Of a DNA stretch of 59,966 nucleotides, positions 24,034 through 36,204 are shown piece after piece. The translations under genes and the position numbers were made by a program. The stretch is from the IMG/VR virus record IMGVR_UViG_3300020476_000002, positions 1-59,966 of that record. One strand, 5' to 3'. This stretch comes from a virus. How positions within the stretch are numbered: the first letter of the stretch is position 1; each line of letters opens with the position of its first letter. The notes under the pieces were generated by a model. The model ran no database searches. It was not told the DNA's origin and saw only the letters and a list, made by a program, of their open reading frames with translations.

Positions 24034-24448
24034 TGCTTTCTTCCTCTCTCTTTTCGAGAATATCTGCGAGAACATAGTTCCCGTCATGTTTATGCCAGAG
24101 ATGCAGACCTAAGCCCAACCTCATCGCACATCTTTTAATACCGTCCGACGCACACGCCTTCAGCCTTGCTCCATCCGTCTTCCAATTGTTCGGATTCTCG
24201 CACTCACCAACCTCTTGTATCGAGGTAGTTCGTCCATCAACATCAACAGTAAGAGTGCAGAGGCAACCAGTAAGAGTACCGTCAGCATCCCGAACAAGAG
24301 TGTCAATAGCAAAATCATGTGGACCTACTATTCCTAATAAGAATTGCGACACAATACCGTGTGGTACATAGGATGCCGCAAATTTTCCCGGTTTAGTTTC
24401 AATGAACTTCTCCGAGAATGGTGTTGCTAACTTACTTAACTGACTCAT
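24026..24448 (-). CDS. Possible Rad52-like single-strand annealing protein (140 aa)
   Basis: A compact alpha/beta protein with ATFSEKFIETKPG-type start and a C-terminal signature (WKTDGARLKACASDGIKRCA, then MRLGLGLHLW) that resembles the conserved helix of Rad52/Sak-type annealing proteins (xALKRAxRxxGLGLxLW). It sits between SSB and a Cas4-like nuclease, the usual exonuclease-annealase arrangement of phage recombination systems. The match is by eye only. Another DNA-binding replication accessory is possible. Confidence 0.5.
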   Translation of the reverse strand: MSQLSKLATPFSEKFIETKPGKFAASYVPHGIVSQFLLGIVGPHDFAIDTLVRDADGTLTGCLCTLTVDVDGRTTSIQEVGECENPNNWKTDGARLKACASDGIKRCAMRLGLGLHLWHKHDGNYVLADILEKREEESNE

Positions 24449-25262
24449 CAGTCTCCTTTATTACTAAATCGATAATGTCTAATATGTTTACGTCGCCATG
24501 CTGTTCACAGATATCAAAGTGAGGACAGTAATTACATTCCCACGGAATCTCTGTGCTCCACCATGATCTCAACCCTTCAGGTATTACACCACTAGTCAAA
24601 TAGTTCTTAGCCATTTGAGCGTGCTGCTCCAAGAAATAAGTAGTAGCAACAGAAATAGATGTGTCGCTCTCATCAATTGGATCGTAGATACTGTAATACC
24701 ATTCAACCATGTCACCGGCACGAGCACTATCTTTCCAACGAGAAGGCGTCGCATCAGTACAGACATACACAAGATGTATCTCTGTCAGCCCCAGCGCTAT
24801 GGCATATGCACACGCTTGGAATAGATGCTCTTCCTTCGGGCCTTCCCTTCTCGCTTTACGGAACCCGTAGTTACGCATGGTTTTAATTTCTAAGACAGTT
24901 CCTTCACGACGACTTGGGTTGTTATGAGATGCATGATAAACACCATCAGCATGACCTGAAGTCATAACGTCAGGCATACTTACAGGCACTTCGCATTCAA
25001 AGTTAGGCACCTTGTCATTGAATGCCTGTTGTATGTGGTCATGCATTGTGTTGCCAAACTCTCTAGCAACATACCCATTGACAGCGTTCTCCCCAGCATC
25101 AACCCGAGGCACACCCATCCCATCGAACACCTGTTTCCTATCACACGTGGTGATATTAGATATTCTCAGGAACGATCCGTCTGCCGTTGGCTTGTTCTCT
25201 GGGTGCCGTATGTATTCACGAAGAGCTAGCTCCGCTGGACCCCGGCCCGTTTCGTACTGCAT
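24432..25262 (-). CDS. Cas4/RecB-like PD-(D/E)XK exonuclease with Fe-S cysteines (276 aa)
   Basis: Start at ATG 25262, with GGGAG six bases before it. Nuclease motifs: HDHI (His74/76), SGHADG (Asp106), VLEIKT (Glu125, Lys127) and QACAYAIAL (Gln149, Tyr153). Cys40 plus the C-terminal Cys243, Cys246 and Cys252 (WECNYCPHFDIC) give the four-cysteine iron-sulfur arrangement of Cas4/AddB nucleases. It would resect DNA ends for the adjacent annealing protein and SSB. No cas genes or CRISPR are present, so a recombination role is favoured. Confidence 0.85.
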   Translation of the reverse strand: MQYETGRGPAELALREYIRHPENKPTADGSFLRISNITTCDRKQVFDGMGVPRVDAGENAVNGYVAREFGNTMHDHIQQAFNDKVPNFECEVPVSMPDVMTSGHADGVYHASHNNPSRREGTVLEIKTMRNYGFRKARREGPKEEHLFQACAYAIALGLTEIHLVYVCTDATPSRWKDSARAGDMVEWYYSIYDPIDESDTSISVATTYFLEQHAQMAKNYLTSGVIPEGLRSWWSTEIPWECNYCPHFDICEQHGDVNILDIIDLVIKETDESVK

Positions 25263-25288
25263 TGTTCTCCCTTTCAAGGTTCAGTTTA

Positions 25289-30807: not shown

Positions 30808-31904
30808 GTGGTCCCTCCTTTCTCGTTGACAAGAGGTGGATAACATGAGCCAGAGCCTTTAGGCCGAAGCCGGAAACCAACCGTGGGGAAGAAAGTTTCC
30901 AAAAATTCATGCGTTTGGGACAACCCGAATACTTGGAGGGTTGGCCCGAAATTTTGGAAAGTTTCAGGGGTCCCCCGGTTTGTTTTCGGGATGGCTCATG
31001 TTAAGCGAACGCTAACGCAAGCGAGGTTTCCCGAGGCTTCAGCCGACAGGAAACCCGGTGAAGTCGAGAGCGTGCTGGCTCTGGGCAACGAGATGGAGGG
31101 GCCACGAAGAACAAATGCGAGGCCAGAATGGGACAATGGATCAGAACGGGAGGGACCGGACTCAGGCCGAATGGAAGGCCACGCTACAAAATGTGACGGT
31201 GGCCCAAGAAAACCGCGAGAACAGCAAGCACAGCCTGCCTTGTCCTCGTACACAGAGCCGGCGACTCCAAACCGAAACAACGCACACGGAACGACGACCA
31301 TGATCGCCGAGACTAGCGACGCAGCACAAAGCAAAGCCGAACCTTCTGGATCACAGTCAGGGCTACCGCTACTTGGGCCACGGCACAAAGACGGCGTGAC
31401 CGGCACAACACCAAACAACAAACAAGACGTGTATGTCTGGCTGGGTGTGTGTGGGGGGGTGTGGTGTGTGGTCTTAGGCCCCTCGCCTCGTGTAGCAGGC
31501 GCACGAGCGAAGCGAGGCGATGTCTGCGACAGCAGGCAGCGCTACCCCCGAAGAATGAGGGGGGCGCCTGCGGTTGTTTGTACTGCAGATCAGTAGACGG
31601 TAAGGGGTGATGTGCCGAGACACCCGTCTTTACATAGATGATTATCGGTGTTTTGGTGTGTTTGGTTCAGTTGTTGTGCTGTGGGTGGTTTTGTCCTTGG
31701 TGTCCTCCGAGTGTTGGGGCCTCTCTTGCCTTGACCTAGCCTCGCTGTGCTGGTCGCTCTATGCCCCCCTGTGGTGTGGGCCGTCGTGTCTGGACATAGA
31801 GTCAGATGCCCCTCTGACGGGCGATCGGACCGGTGTTAGCGGCGAGTGCATTTGTACTGTATCATGTCGGGACGGGGGATCGAACCTATTTTGGAGATAA
31901 TGTA
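30808..31904. other. 1.1-kb non-coding divergent region
   Basis: The region separates leftward early genes from rightward genes. Long ORFs here (30883-31596 and 31607-31900) have odd composition and no ribosome binding site and are not accepted. Features seen: the large inverted repeat at 30841-31003; a TCGCCTCG/CGAGGCGA pair around 31483-31520; a hairpin near 31594-31632 (AGAC...GGGTG with CACCC-GTCT); CTCTATG/CATAGAG (31757-31763 and 31795-31801); GTCAGA/TCTGAC (31801-31818); and a G/T-rich tract near 31440-31470. Promoters must lie here but none is convincing. Origin, packaging site or control region are all possible. Confidence 0.6.
30841..31003. repeat. Large imperfect inverted repeat
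   Basis: Outer arms TAACATGAGCC (30841-30851) and GGCTCATGTTA (30993-31003) match perfectly over 11 bases. Inner arms TTTCCAAAAATT (30896-30907) and AAATTTTGGAAA (30949-30960) match over nearly 12. Between them the arms share further patches (AAACxAACCG with GGGGA). The whole forms arms of about 60 bases around a 40-base centre, just upstream of the first leftward gene. Confidence 0.75.
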
Positions 31905-32786: not shown

Positions 32787-33065
32787 ATGACAATCGAAGA
32801 TGTAGCTGAAAGAGCAGATGTTTGGTCTGAGGCAATCAAAAAGATTGTGAAATCTATTGCTGCTGCTGGTGTTGCGCTTGCGACCGGCATCGCAGCCCTT
32901 TTAGCGTGGTGGCCTTCGGGGGATTCCTCTGAAGAAACTCCGCCTTTGTTACAAGGAACAGGATATGGTCCACAGTGTTCTCAGCTTTACAATACAATCG
33001 ACCATAACTGGACTGAACAACAATGGTCGGTGTGGGAAAAACTACGAAAAGATTTAGGTTGCTAG
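32787..33065 (+). CDS. Single-span membrane protein (92 aa)
   Basis: A helical N-terminus (TIEDVAERADVWSEAIKKIV) leads into one clear transmembrane helix near residues 26-46 (IAAAGVALATGIAALLAWWP). A Ser/Glu-rich part and a C-terminal domain with two cysteines (GPQCSQLYN ... LGC) follow. It could be a second lysis protein or a membrane anchor. The neighbouring 147-aa gene is also membrane-anchored. Confidence 0.65.
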   Translation: MTIEDVAERADVWSEAIKKIVKSIAAAGVALATGIAALLAWWPSGDSSEETPPLLQGTGYGPQCSQLYNTIDHNWTEQQWSVWEKLRKDLGC

Positions 33066-33074
33066 GAGGGAATT

Positions 33075-33281
33075 ATGCCAAATTCAGAATGCCCGAATTG
33101 CAATTGTGAATCATGCCCATGCAGTTGTAATCATTGCGACTGTTGTGGACATATGGACGGTTTGGAAAAAAAATTCAAACTTTCGATGTGTGCAGGACAA
33201 GGATTCAAGATTCGTCCTATCGTTAGAACATACCGATACGAAAAATATCATGTTTTACCGAAAGAAAGAGTTTTTAAGTAA
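33075..33281 (+). CDS. Metallothionein-like Cys-rich protein (68 aa)
   Basis: AGGAGGG precedes the ATG. Residues 6-24 hold nine cysteines in CxxC and CxC steps (CPNCNCESCPCSCNHCDCC), with His20 and His26 nearby. The C-terminal half is basic and cysteine-poor (FKIRPIVRTYRYEKYHVLPK). That density suggests a bound metal cluster, as in metallothioneins or multi-zinc knuckles. Homology to a named family is not claimed. It stands two genes before a ferredoxin. Confidence 0.65.
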   Translation: MPNSECPNCNCESCPCSCNHCDCCGHMDGLEKKFKLSMCAGQGFKIRPIVRTYRYEKYHVLPKERVFK

Positions 33282-33724
33282 TGGCTGACGACCTTGAACA
33301 AGACTTCAAACAAATAAAAATAAGTCGGCTCACCCTCGGACTCATAATGTCTGTAGCAGTTACTTCTGGCGTCATCGTGTGGAACGCCGCCCAAGTAGCA
33401 GGCCGAATAGGAGAACTTGAAGACACAGTAAACCGAGTCGAACAAGACATGGGAGAGTTGCAAATCGAAACCGACCCCACAATCCTCCTCAGACTCGACT
33501 CATTAGAAGAAAAAATCGACGAGCTTGCCGATATGGACCACAATGTGGAACTTACGTCCCGTATCGTGGAACTCGAAGACTGGATTGAAGAACTTGACCG
33601 TGACAACGGTGAAGAACTGCGCTGGGAATTAGATGATTTGCATCATCGGTCGTGGGCTTTCGAAGAAACACTTCGTAGTCGCACATGGGGGGACGAGATG
33701 TTGCGAGAATTCTTAGGGTGGTAA
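33281..33724 (+). CDS. Membrane-anchored coiled-coil protein (147 aa)
   Basis: One N-terminal transmembrane helix at about residues 17-38 (LTLGLIMSVAVTSGVIVWNA) is followed by a long acidic coiled coil (RIGELEDTVNRVEQDMGELQ, then LRLDSLEEKIDELADM) and a Trp-rich end. The layout resembles phage membrane-linked rods such as spanins or lysis regulators. A Gram-positive host would not need a spanin, so the role stays open. Confidence 0.65.
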   Translation: MADDLEQDFKQIKISRLTLGLIMSVAVTSGVIVWNAAQVAGRIGELEDTVNRVEQDMGELQIETDPTILLRLDSLEEKIDELADMDHNVELTSRIVELEDWIEELDRDNGEELRWELDDLHHRSWAFEETLRSRTWGDEMLREFLGW

Positions 33725-33727
33725 CCC

Positions 33728-33970
33728 GTGAAGGTCTGGATCGACCAAGATCTTTGTACCGGTGACGGACTGTGTGCAGAAATATGTCCTGAAGTTTTCG
33801 TTATGCGAGATGACGGGCTTGCCTATGTGCAAGAAAACGGTCACGTGTTCGACGATCCGGGGGGTGCGTTTGGGTTAGCGAACTTCAAAGAAAGTGAATT
33901 AGAAGCTGTTATCGAATCAGCAGAAGAGTGTCCGGGGGAATGCATATATATTGAAGTAAGTTCTGGATAA
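33728..33970 (+). CDS. Ferredoxin (80 aa)
   Basis: GTG start. The product VWIDQDLCTGDGLCAEICPE, then VF, and a C-terminal ECPGECIYIEV match small [3Fe-4S]/[4Fe-4S] ferredoxins of actinobacterial and archaeal type. Cluster residues would be Cys10, Asp13, Cys16 and Cys68, with Cys20 also present. The CxxDxxC pattern is the one in Pyrococcus furiosus ferredoxin, where Asp replaces the second cysteine. A one-electron carrier for a host redox enzyme is likely. No phage-encoded partner is visible. Confidence 0.85.
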   Translation: MKVWIDQDLCTGDGLCAEICPEVFVMRDDGLAYVQENGHVFDDPGGAFGLANFKESELEAVIESAEECPGECIYIEVSSG

Positions 33971-34263
33971 TGGTTATTTACGGTTGCAATTGTGAAGAAG
34001 AAGAATGCATTTGTCACTTCTACCATTACGACTGTGCTTGCGATCATTGCCCTGACTGTGCAGACGACTGTTTCTGTTTCGATTATGCAGAAGAAATAGC
34101 CGGATCAGACGATATAGAACCTATGACTCTTATGGAAATTTTTGAACAACACCCCGAATTGTTAGGGGAACGTTTAGATGAAGTGTTACTTGATCCTTTC
34201 GAGGATGACGAAATAATTGAATGTGATTTAGAGAACCCAGATATTTGTGAATCGTGCCAATAA
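33970..34263 (+). CDS. Cys-rich acidic protein (97 aa)
   Basis: ATG overlaps the ferredoxin stop (TAATG). Ten cysteines fall in the first 36 residues (YGCNCEEEECICHFYHYDCA, then CDHCPDCADDCFC) with two histidines. An acidic helical part and a CDLENPDICESC end follow. It may bind several metal ions or assist iron-sulfur assembly for the coupled ferredoxin. No named family; translation is strongly implied by the overlap. Confidence 0.65.
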   Translation: MVIYGCNCEEEECICHFYHYDCACDHCPDCADDCFCFDYAEEIAGSDDIEPMTLMEIFEQHPELLGERLDEVLLDPFEDDEIIECDLENPDICESCQ

Positions 34264-34272
34264 GGGGCCACA

Positions 34273-36204
34273 ATGCCATCAGGTAAAGCAACAACTGTAG
34301 AAAAATGGGCTGACTATCAGGCGTTTCGCCGTCAAGGTAAGTCTTTGTATGCTTCAGCCAAAGAATGCAATCTTTCCTATCATGCGTGTCGAGATGCCGA
34401 AAACGGTAAAGCCCCAAGAAACTATATTGCCGCCCAAGAAGCACTCGGCAAAACAATTCAACCGGAGGTACCCCAATATGATGACCTTTGTCCCGAAGCG
34501 CAGGCTGCTTACGATAATATCGAAATCTTTGCGAAAAGGTATTTTGGGATTATTTTACAACCATGGCAAATTGAAGCAACAGAACGGATCATGGCTCTTA
34601 TCGAAACAGAATACGAAGAGTATGCCGTAATAAACGCCCCACCCGGATCAGGTAAATCAACTTTCTTTGCCAAAGTTCTGCCTGCATGGGCAACTGTACG
34701 CAATCGTGCCATCCGTGGCATGATCGGATCTTCCACACAACGACTAGCTGAATGGTATGCACGCCGATTACGAGCCGAACTTGACCGAACGCACCCAGTT
34801 TTAGCTGAACTTAATGATGTCCGACTTGGATTAGCTGTTGATGCTGAAGCCACACTCCAAGATGACTTCGGAATGTTCAAACCAGACTCATCAGAGATTT
34901 GGCGTGCCGAAGCGTTCACCGTTTTACAAGCCAACGACCAGCCACTTTCCCAGAAAGAACCCACATGGTCTGCGTTTGGAATGGACTCAGGGTTCCTTGG
35001 TGGTAGATTTGATCTTGTAATCTGGGACGACGTGTACGACCCACGCAAAATGCGTAACGCTGAAGCCCGTGAAGATATGCGAAGATGGTGGGATGAAGTT
35101 GCAGAAACGAGACTTGAACCCGGAGGACTCCTTGTTCTCCAAGGACAACGTATGTCCGCTGACGACATTTACCGGTACGCACTCGATAAGGTCGCGCCCC
35201 CCGACGAAATTGAGTTGGAAGATTTTGATCCCGAAGATGCTCCTGAAGAGTGGCGCAAATATAGTCACATCAAATATAAAGCGCATTATGAAGAACTATG
35301 CACGGGCGATCCCGAAAACCACAAGCCCAGTGGGGAACCTTGGCCCAGAGGATGCCTACTATACCCACGGCGTTTACCTTGGCGACGATTACGTCACATT
35401 AAAGCACAAACACCAGACCGATTCGAAGTCTTATTCCAACAAGAAGATGTAAACCCTGCGAATGCGTTAGTAGATCCCCTTTGGGTTAGTGGCGGAACAG
35501 GTAACGACGGTGTAGAACACCCCGGTTGTTGGGATAACGACCGAGGGTTATGGGAATTACCCCAAAACGTGAGCGGCGACATGTTTGTTGTCGCCACAGC
35601 AGACCCTTCTCCTGCGAATTATTGGGCAATTCAATGCTGGGCCTACAATCCTGAAACCGAATTCCGGTATTTGTTGGAATCATATCGACGCAAAATGGAT
35701 GCCCCCAGTTTCCTTGACTGGAACCACGAAAATCAAATGTTTACTGGTATAGCCGAAGAATGGTGGCAAATCAGTTACGAAATGGGTCGCCCCATCACCC
35801 ATTGGGTCATAGAAGCAAACGCTGCACAAAAATTTATTTTGCAATATGATCATTTTAGAAGATGGTCTGCATTAAGAAATGTTCAACTTGTTCCGCATTA
35901 CACACACTCTCGCAACAAAGGCGACCCCAAATATGGGGTGCAGATGCTTGCGCCGTTATGGCGTGTTGGCCGAGTGCGTTTGCCGGGTAGACAAAACAGT
36001 GAAGCACGCCCCCATTCGCTACTTTTGGTCAACGAAGTAACTCGTTGGAACCCTGAAGGTACTGGTGCACGCACAGATGACTGTGTTATGGCACAATGGT
36101 TCCTAGAACATAACTTAGAGAAGTTGTTTACACCTAGTATTATCAATAGTCGTCAGTGGCGTCCATCGTGGATGTCTGCTGAAGCTGAATCAGTTTTGAG
36201 GTAA
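34273..36204 (+). CDS. terL: Terminase large subunit (phage Y, 643 aa)
   Basis: Residues about 22-46 form a helix-turn-helix-like DNA-binding start. The ATPase has Walker A NAPPGSGKST (121-130), Walker B FDLVIWDD (246-253) and coupling motif LLVLQGQRMS (286-295). The C-terminal nuclease shows VVATADPSPANYWAI, HWVIEANAAQ and GARTDDCVMAQWFLEHNL, carrying the expected acidic residues. It cuts concatemers and drives DNA through the portal encoded two bases downstream. No separate small subunit was recognised; the N-terminal extension or a nearby small gene may do that job. Confidence 0.93.
   Translation: MPSGKATTVEKWADYQAFRRQGKSLYASAKECNLSYHACRDAENGKAPRNYIAAQEALGKTIQPEVPQYDDLCPEAQAAYDNIEIFAKRYFGIILQPWQIEATERIMALIETEYEEYAVINAPPGSGKSTFFAKVLPAWATVRNRAIRGMIGSSTQRLAEWYARRLRAELDRTHPVLAELNDVRLGLAVDAEATLQDDFGMFKPDSSEIWRAEAFTVLQANDQPLSQKEPTWSAFGMDSGFLGGRFDLVIWDDVYDPRKMRNAEAREDMRRWWDEVAETRLEPGGLLVLQGQRMSADDIYRYALDKVAPPDEIELEDFDPEDAPEEWRKYSHIKYKAHYEELCTGDPENHKPSGEPWPRGCLLYPRRLPWRRLRHIKAQTPDRFEVLFQQEDVNPANALVDPLWVSGGTGNDGVEHPGCWDNDRGLWELPQNVSGDMFVVATADPSPANYWAIQCWAYNPETEFRYLLESYRRKMDAPSFLDWNHENQMFTGIAEEWWQISYEMGRPITHWVIEANAAQKFILQYDHFRRWSALRNVQLVPHYTHSRNKGDPKYGVQMLAPLWRVGRVRLPGRQNSEARPHSLLLVNEVTRWNPEGTGARTDDCVMAQWFLEHNLEKLFTPSIINSRQWRPSWMSAEAESVLR

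Follow-up and report, generated by a model that had tools for sequence, protein, structure and literature searches.

We put at about even the chance that the cysteine-rich genes around the ferredoxin of this virus are two side-by-side things: a metallothionein-like micro-peptide, Cys27, that is co-translated with the ferredoxin and guards it, and a separate Cys-rich protein of the terminase locus, C97. The DNA analysed, referred to here as the window, is the IMG/VR virus record IMGVR_UViG_3300020476_000002 over its full length of 59,966 bases. Its relevant features are:

32787 to 33065, plus strand: open reading frame for p92, a 92-residue protein with one hydrophobic segment
33075 to 33161, plus strand: Cys27 module with nine Cys, the N-terminus of a 68-residue protein; a stand-alone gene in 12 other contigs
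33162 to 33281, plus strand: P60 module, the C-terminal part of the 68-residue protein, and stop codon; a separate small gene in relatives
33281 to 33724, plus strand: open reading frame for a 147-residue membrane/coiled-coil protein, with weak PHROG matches that are mostly of unknown function
33728 to 33970, plus strand: ferredoxin, 80 residues, GTG start, Fer4_15 match
33970 to 34263, plus strand: C97, a 97-residue protein, the gene next upstream of the terminase large subunit (TerL)
33985 to 34077, plus strand: N-terminal domain of C97, with 10 Cys and 2 His, all invariant
34120 to 34260, plus strand: acidic C-terminal domain of C97, which occurs alone elsewhere
34273 to 36204, plus strand: TerL (phrog_38, E = 1.5e-50)

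The 68-residue frame (33075-33281) has Cys at positions 6, 9, 11, 14, 16, 18, 21, 23 and 24, with another at 39, and the 97-residue frame has Cys at 6, 8, 13, 15, 22, 24, 27, 30, 34 and 36, followed by C85, C93 and C96. A sequence-only reading of this DNA had counted nine Cys within residues 6-24 of the first and ten within residues 6-36 of the second; both counts and both frames are correct. The frames are also beyond what chance would produce, as both recur in other contigs with their Cys kept and with pN/pS values of 0.05 (Cys27, nine distinct sequences) and 0.10 (the N-terminal domain of C97). The same reading had the two genes flanking the ferredoxin and the second translationally coupled to it. 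C97 does touch the ferredoxin, its start overlapping the ferredoxin stop as TAATG at 33968-33972, and coupling is what this overlap suggests; the 68-residue gene, on the other hand, is separated from the ferredoxin by the gene for the 147-residue protein. The latter protein has one hydrophobic segment and a coiled coil, its gene shares a TAATG overlap with the 68-residue gene, and in relatives it lies directly 5' of C97 or Cys27.

The ferredoxin matches Fer4_15 with E = 5e-18 and 66 bits (curated cut-off 22.4), and the nearest solved sequence is that of Pyrococcus furiosus ferredoxin. Its putative ligands follow the pattern C10-x2-D13-x2-C16 ... C68-P, with Asp in the second ligand position; C10, D13, C16 and C68 are invariant in 27 sequences, and C20 varies, as would be expected if C20 is not a ligand. 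In the P. furiosus protein, Asp14 binds one iron, which is easily lost. A structural model of the phage protein (pLDDT 81) matches both this ferredoxin and the CYP (P450)-associated [3Fe-4S] ferredoxins, with Foldseek scores of TMt 0.80 for 1siz and TMt 0.92 for 4id8. Judged by sequence and model, the phage ferredoxin is of the single-cluster type and is predicted to hold a [4Fe-4S] or [3Fe-4S] cluster. It resembles these Fer4_15 proteins in sequence, in the C-x2-D-x2-C...C-P arrangement and in fold, and differs from them in being about 15 residues longer and phage-encoded. More than 580 relatives are present in aquatic viral contigs, where phage ferredoxins are common, whereas neither INPHARED phages nor BFVD gave a match. 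Virus-encoded ferredoxin has been reported in Nitrospirota viruses of Lake Baikal, a freshwater setting (PMC7678222), and ferredoxin genes have also been reported in cyanophages; these are likewise virus accessory genes, compared here by description only, and the parts of those accounts consulted describe no Cys-rich companion.

In the nearest relatives of the window, the Cys-rich part of the 68-residue protein is a gene of its own, of 27-28 codons (e.g., MTKCPNCNCESCPCSCNHCDCCGHMDG), whose stop codon shares bases with the ferredoxin start codon; the overlap reads TGATG in most of them and TAATG in L004. The peptide of 27-28 residues contains nine Cys (33%), two His, and no Phe, Trp or Tyr. 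A Cys share of one third combined with a lack of aromatics resembles the composition of metallothioneins, and the beta domain of vertebrate metallothioneins also has nine Cys. Indeed, Cys27 has all the compositional features by which metallothioneins are recognized: low mass, Cys at ~20-33%, C-x-C, C-x2-C and C-C motifs, and few or no aromatics (for a general description of the class, see PMC7558416). Like bacterial SmtA/BmtA, mycobacterial MymT, the small fungal Cu-metallothioneins and a single beta domain, it is very short and about one-third Cys, with the same clustered motifs; unlike them, it is phage-encoded from a gene that overlaps a ferredoxin gene, and it is half the size of the bacterial ones. 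Neither it nor the 68-residue protein matched any Pfam, NCBIfam or PHROG profile, a search in which a 27-residue query has little power. As there is no profile match and metal binding is a prediction, we class Cys27 for working purposes as metallothionein-like and keep it outside the known metallothionein families.

All nine Cys of Cys27 are invariant across nine distinct sequences, and the non-Cys residues N, S, P, N, H, D, G, H, M, D and G are equally fixed, with synonymous change saturated. Between the window and L002, L014 and L017 there are 11, 11 and 15 synonymous differences, respectively, and no non-synonymous ones over 24 codons. These comparisons show strong selection on the peptide. 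In the window, Cys27 is displaced from the ferredoxin and fused to P60, and yet its peptide sequence is unchanged.

This pattern bears on an alternative in which Cys27 is a leader: ribosomes would pause at its cysteine codons under cysteine shortage, altering translation of the overlapping ferredoxin gene. A very short frame with one third Cys codons and a stop overlapping the ferredoxin start would be suited to this. Polycysteine leaders are known in actinobacteria (PMC9094748, citing Canestrari et al. 2020), and TerL and capsid are nearest to those of Streptomyces phages; the mycobacterial leader frames are, like Cys27, short, Cys-rich and upstream of an operon gene. However, an attenuator would show selection on Cys codons and position rather than on the whole peptide, and Cys27 does not: its other residues are as fixed as its Cys despite the saturated synonymous change. 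Furthermore, the window frame is unaltered although fused and separated from the ferredoxin by the 147-residue gene, and in a third lineage described below a Cys-rich peptide lies downstream of the ferredoxin instead. Since the whole peptide is conserved even when displaced, a pure leader role is disfavoured, and we regard this explanation as quite improbable.

The P60 module, the remaining 40 residues of the 68-residue protein, has its counterpart in a separate short gene (FKLSxCAGQxFKIxPIV...). This gene precedes Cys27 in L004 and L008, follows the ferredoxin in L014 and is also present in L148, at a locus without ferredoxin. The junction between Cys27 and P60 was found in no other viral contig searched and is known from the window record alone. 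Either a rearrangement private to this contig or a join made in assembly could explain the fusion, the latter being conceivable because the window contig holds two diverged copies of a late region. A zinc-ribbon, uS14-like match of the 68-residue protein (E = 0.42) was discarded as chance, as the C-terminal half is a separate gene.

The co-occurrence of Cys27 with the ferredoxin is close. A pattern scan of viral contigs for Cys27 returned 12 contigs, and the ferredoxin is directly downstream, overlapping, in 12 of 12. Among the 17 loci nearest by ferredoxin (the window and L002-L017), Cys27 is present in 13 and absent from four (L010, L011, L013 and L016); L002/L003 and L004/L005/L006 are near-identical, so that there are fewer independent cases than contigs. 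The pair sits on two backbones. The first has the window's terminase; in the second (L009, L012, L014, L015 and L017), a small terminase subunit is present and the large subunit is another one (phrog_5989/phrog_38407), such that a p92-Cys27-ferredoxin block stands upstream of a terminase unrelated to that of the window. Matches to p92 by phmmer lie 5' of Cys27/ferredoxin in most of L002-L017, so that p92 is conserved next to the pair in two lineages. In the third lineage (L189, L190 and L192; TerL 64% identity), the ferredoxin is followed by a different peptide, MSCECGCPPDCGCTEESNCGCKCWE..., of 26-29 residues with 8 Cys; its ATG and the stop codon of the ferredoxin overlap as TGATG, and a membrane protein and then TerL come next. 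The pattern of this 8-Cys peptide was found in five contigs, and in L188, which carries it, the contig begins just upstream so that the ferredoxin position falls outside. On sequence, the 8-Cys peptide and the ferredoxin appear to be an independent second pairing, a common ancestry with Cys27 not being readable at such length. The carriers of the ferredoxin-peptide pair are uncultured, mostly marine phages.

Both peptides have so far been found solely with the ferredoxin, and the reverse is not so. In a set of 104 distinct ferredoxins drawn from marine and freshwater contigs, roughly twelve adjoin either peptide and ~90 have no Cys-rich neighbour, which indicates that the ferredoxin does not need the peptide. 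Ferredoxin relatives devoid of Cys-rich genes had been named in the sequence-only reading as grounds for abandoning the metal-handling set; such relatives are the majority, yet the pairing with a peptide recurs in some. A six-frame count over 2.2 Mb covered open reading frames of 20-45 residues that contain seven or more Cys and have a Cys content of 20% or higher. The two peptide families found beside the ferredoxin account for all of these except a handful of non-coding frames that were single or of low complexity; the loci in this set were chosen partly for ferredoxin, and the background is biased to that extent.

The link between Cys27 and the ferredoxin may in part be shared ancestry of a gene block. 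A stronger form of this argument is that small accessory genes near the terminase are co-inherited without any joint function, the peptide detoxifying metal or serving some other end. The neighbouring p92, P60 and C-terminal domain of C97 are likewise shared and shuffled, and most ferredoxins have no peptide, as such passive inheritance would have it, but it does not readily explain why, in another lineage, the same ferredoxin overlaps with a Cys-rich peptide of a different kind, and we consider the explanation unlikely. The functional unit of Cys27 and ferredoxin is favoured by the complete linkage in the 12 contigs, the unchanged sequence of the displaced copy, the independent 8-Cys pairing and the occurrence of the block beside an unrelated terminase; the many ferredoxins with no Cys-rich neighbour and the four close loci without Cys27 count against it, and the lack of a metallothionein family match counts against a metallothionein-like peptide.

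In such a unit, Cys27 and the ferredoxin would be expressed from overlapping frames in the late (packaging) operon of the relatives. The peptide would most likely fold around one small metal-thiolate cluster; nine thiolates would be the right number for three divalent ions, Zn(II) for example, or for roughly six Cu(I), like a single metallothionein beta domain. Most likely it would then hold or buffer soft metal ions in late infection, and this buffering would allow the phage ferredoxin, with its labile Asp-ligated iron, to be made and to stay intact. We infer the binding of Zn(II) or Cu(I), and the protection or assembly of the ferredoxin's exposed cluster, from composition, size and joint production. 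Alternatively, Cys27 could be a small Fe-S protein or an iron-sulfur donor from which the ferredoxin is loaded; the strict pairing with the ferredoxin and the existence of two different peptide forms would be apt for this. From general knowledge, however, clustered C-x-C, C-C and C-x2-C motifs at 33% Cys are nearer to metal-thiolate peptides than to Fe-S scaffolds, and no scaffold family was matched; this alternative seems to us improbable.

Returning to the metallothionein-like reading, a broader proposal is that phages have repeatedly paired a ferredoxin with co-translated micro-metallothioneins of 26-29 residues that guard or supply its metal cluster in late infection. We advance this tentatively, with a likelihood clearly short of even. 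If true, metal-thiolate peptides would be an addition to the accessory genes known from phages, and these micro-metallothioneins would be among the smallest known and would constitute a phage-made metal-buffering system. A Cys-rich peptide that overlaps the ferredoxin gene in two forms offers a direct handle on the integrity of the phage ferredoxin cluster, and genes of fewer than 30 codons, missed by ordinary annotation, can be real and informative. The first impression that no described phage cassette is of this make-up held up in INPHARED phages, Pfam, PHROGs and NCBIfam, where none was found. Our search of the open-access literature found no paper on phage metallothioneins or on a Cys-peptide/ferredoxin pair, which is not proof of absence.

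C97 has different associations. It is directly upstream of TerL in 31 of 31 contigs (30 from a scan and the window), of which 8 contain ferredoxin and Cys27 and 23 are without ferredoxin, 2 of the latter ending close upstream; in the contigs without ferredoxin, C97 usually follows the 147-residue gene. These counts overturn the earlier suggestion that the two Cys-rich genes and the ferredoxin form a three-gene metal-handling set, with metal storage, Fe-S donation or sensing as its candidate roles. The three-gene unit was rejected since C97 accompanies TerL and not the ferredoxin, and of the expected co-occurrence in relatives only the pair of Cys-rich peptide and ferredoxin survives. The Cys domain of C97 follows the motif C-x-C-x4-C-x-C-H-x2-H-x2-C-x-C-x2-C-x2-C-x3-C-x-C, in which 10 Cys and 2 His are invariant (26 sequences). 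Other lineages have the acidic domain, ending C-x-LENP-x2-C-x2-CQ, on its own at their packaging loci. We found no match for C97 in Pfam, NCBIfam or PHROG families. The AlphaFold model (pLDDT 54) leaves residues 1-39 without confident structure and places short helices at 54-65; the missing structure in the Cys region is weakly suggestive of metal-dependent folding. We take C97 to be a protein of the terminase locus with a probable metal-binding domain, zinc being the probable metal, and its overlap with the ferredoxin to be positional. A more specific role, compatible with the main reading, is that of a Zn-binding terminase accessory (adaptor- or small-subunit-like) whose acidic domain touches the motor. 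The invariable position next to TerL and the recurrence of the C-terminal domain in packaging loci across several lineages speak for this role, the low model confidence and the lack of a family match speak against it, and we see it as possible, at a little under an even chance.

Upstream of the same terminase, by ~2.4 kb, a conserved non-coding element at 31740-31880 (plus strand) has an invariant core, GCCCCTYTRACGGGCGA, that is kept in 20 of 20 aligned phages with TerL identity down to about 62-64%. It contains a hairpin, GCCC...GGGC, followed by another short one in which compensatory changes are seen at two pairs; the element had no Rfam match and is a candidate structured RNA or packaging site. 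At 24432-25277 (minus strand), within a minus-strand region, the window carries a Cas4-like/RecE-like exonuclease gene (phrog_1706, phrog_1990).

Two further sets of Cys-rich frames were noted near ferredoxin relatives. In freshwater phages, a conserved C-x-C-x2-C-x-C frame (SECQCAHCGCETRC...; SECQCAHCGCE...) lies ~500-740 nt upstream of a ferredoxin relative (L018, 3459-3617; L075, 4335-4505; L077, 403-573) and overlaps the frame of a lipoprotein gene; it is a candidate gene. A possible Cys-rich frame of 15-21 codons (TCECQECKCDPCEC) with a TTG start is located at 1037-1100 of L262, ~340 nt after the ferredoxin, and also in L267, L269 and L278. As a further pairing this micro-frame (TCECQECKCDPCECC) was rejected as too weak, given its TTG start and its shortening in the other three contigs.

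The two copies of the late region in the window are portal-capsid-amidase regions at 1-21400 and 36200-59966, with 66-88% nucleotide identity over blocks and some stretches identical. As the contig amounts to ~1.65 phage genome lengths and holds two diverged copies, it may join two related phages. L122 (MAG contig PARV01000048.1) and L287 place the same phage type in a MAG labelled Gammaproteobacteria; another contig of this MAG encodes, beside a phage-like gene, a ferredoxin with 60% identity. The host cues conflict, this Gammaproteobacteria label standing against the Streptomyces-phage-like TerL and capsid.
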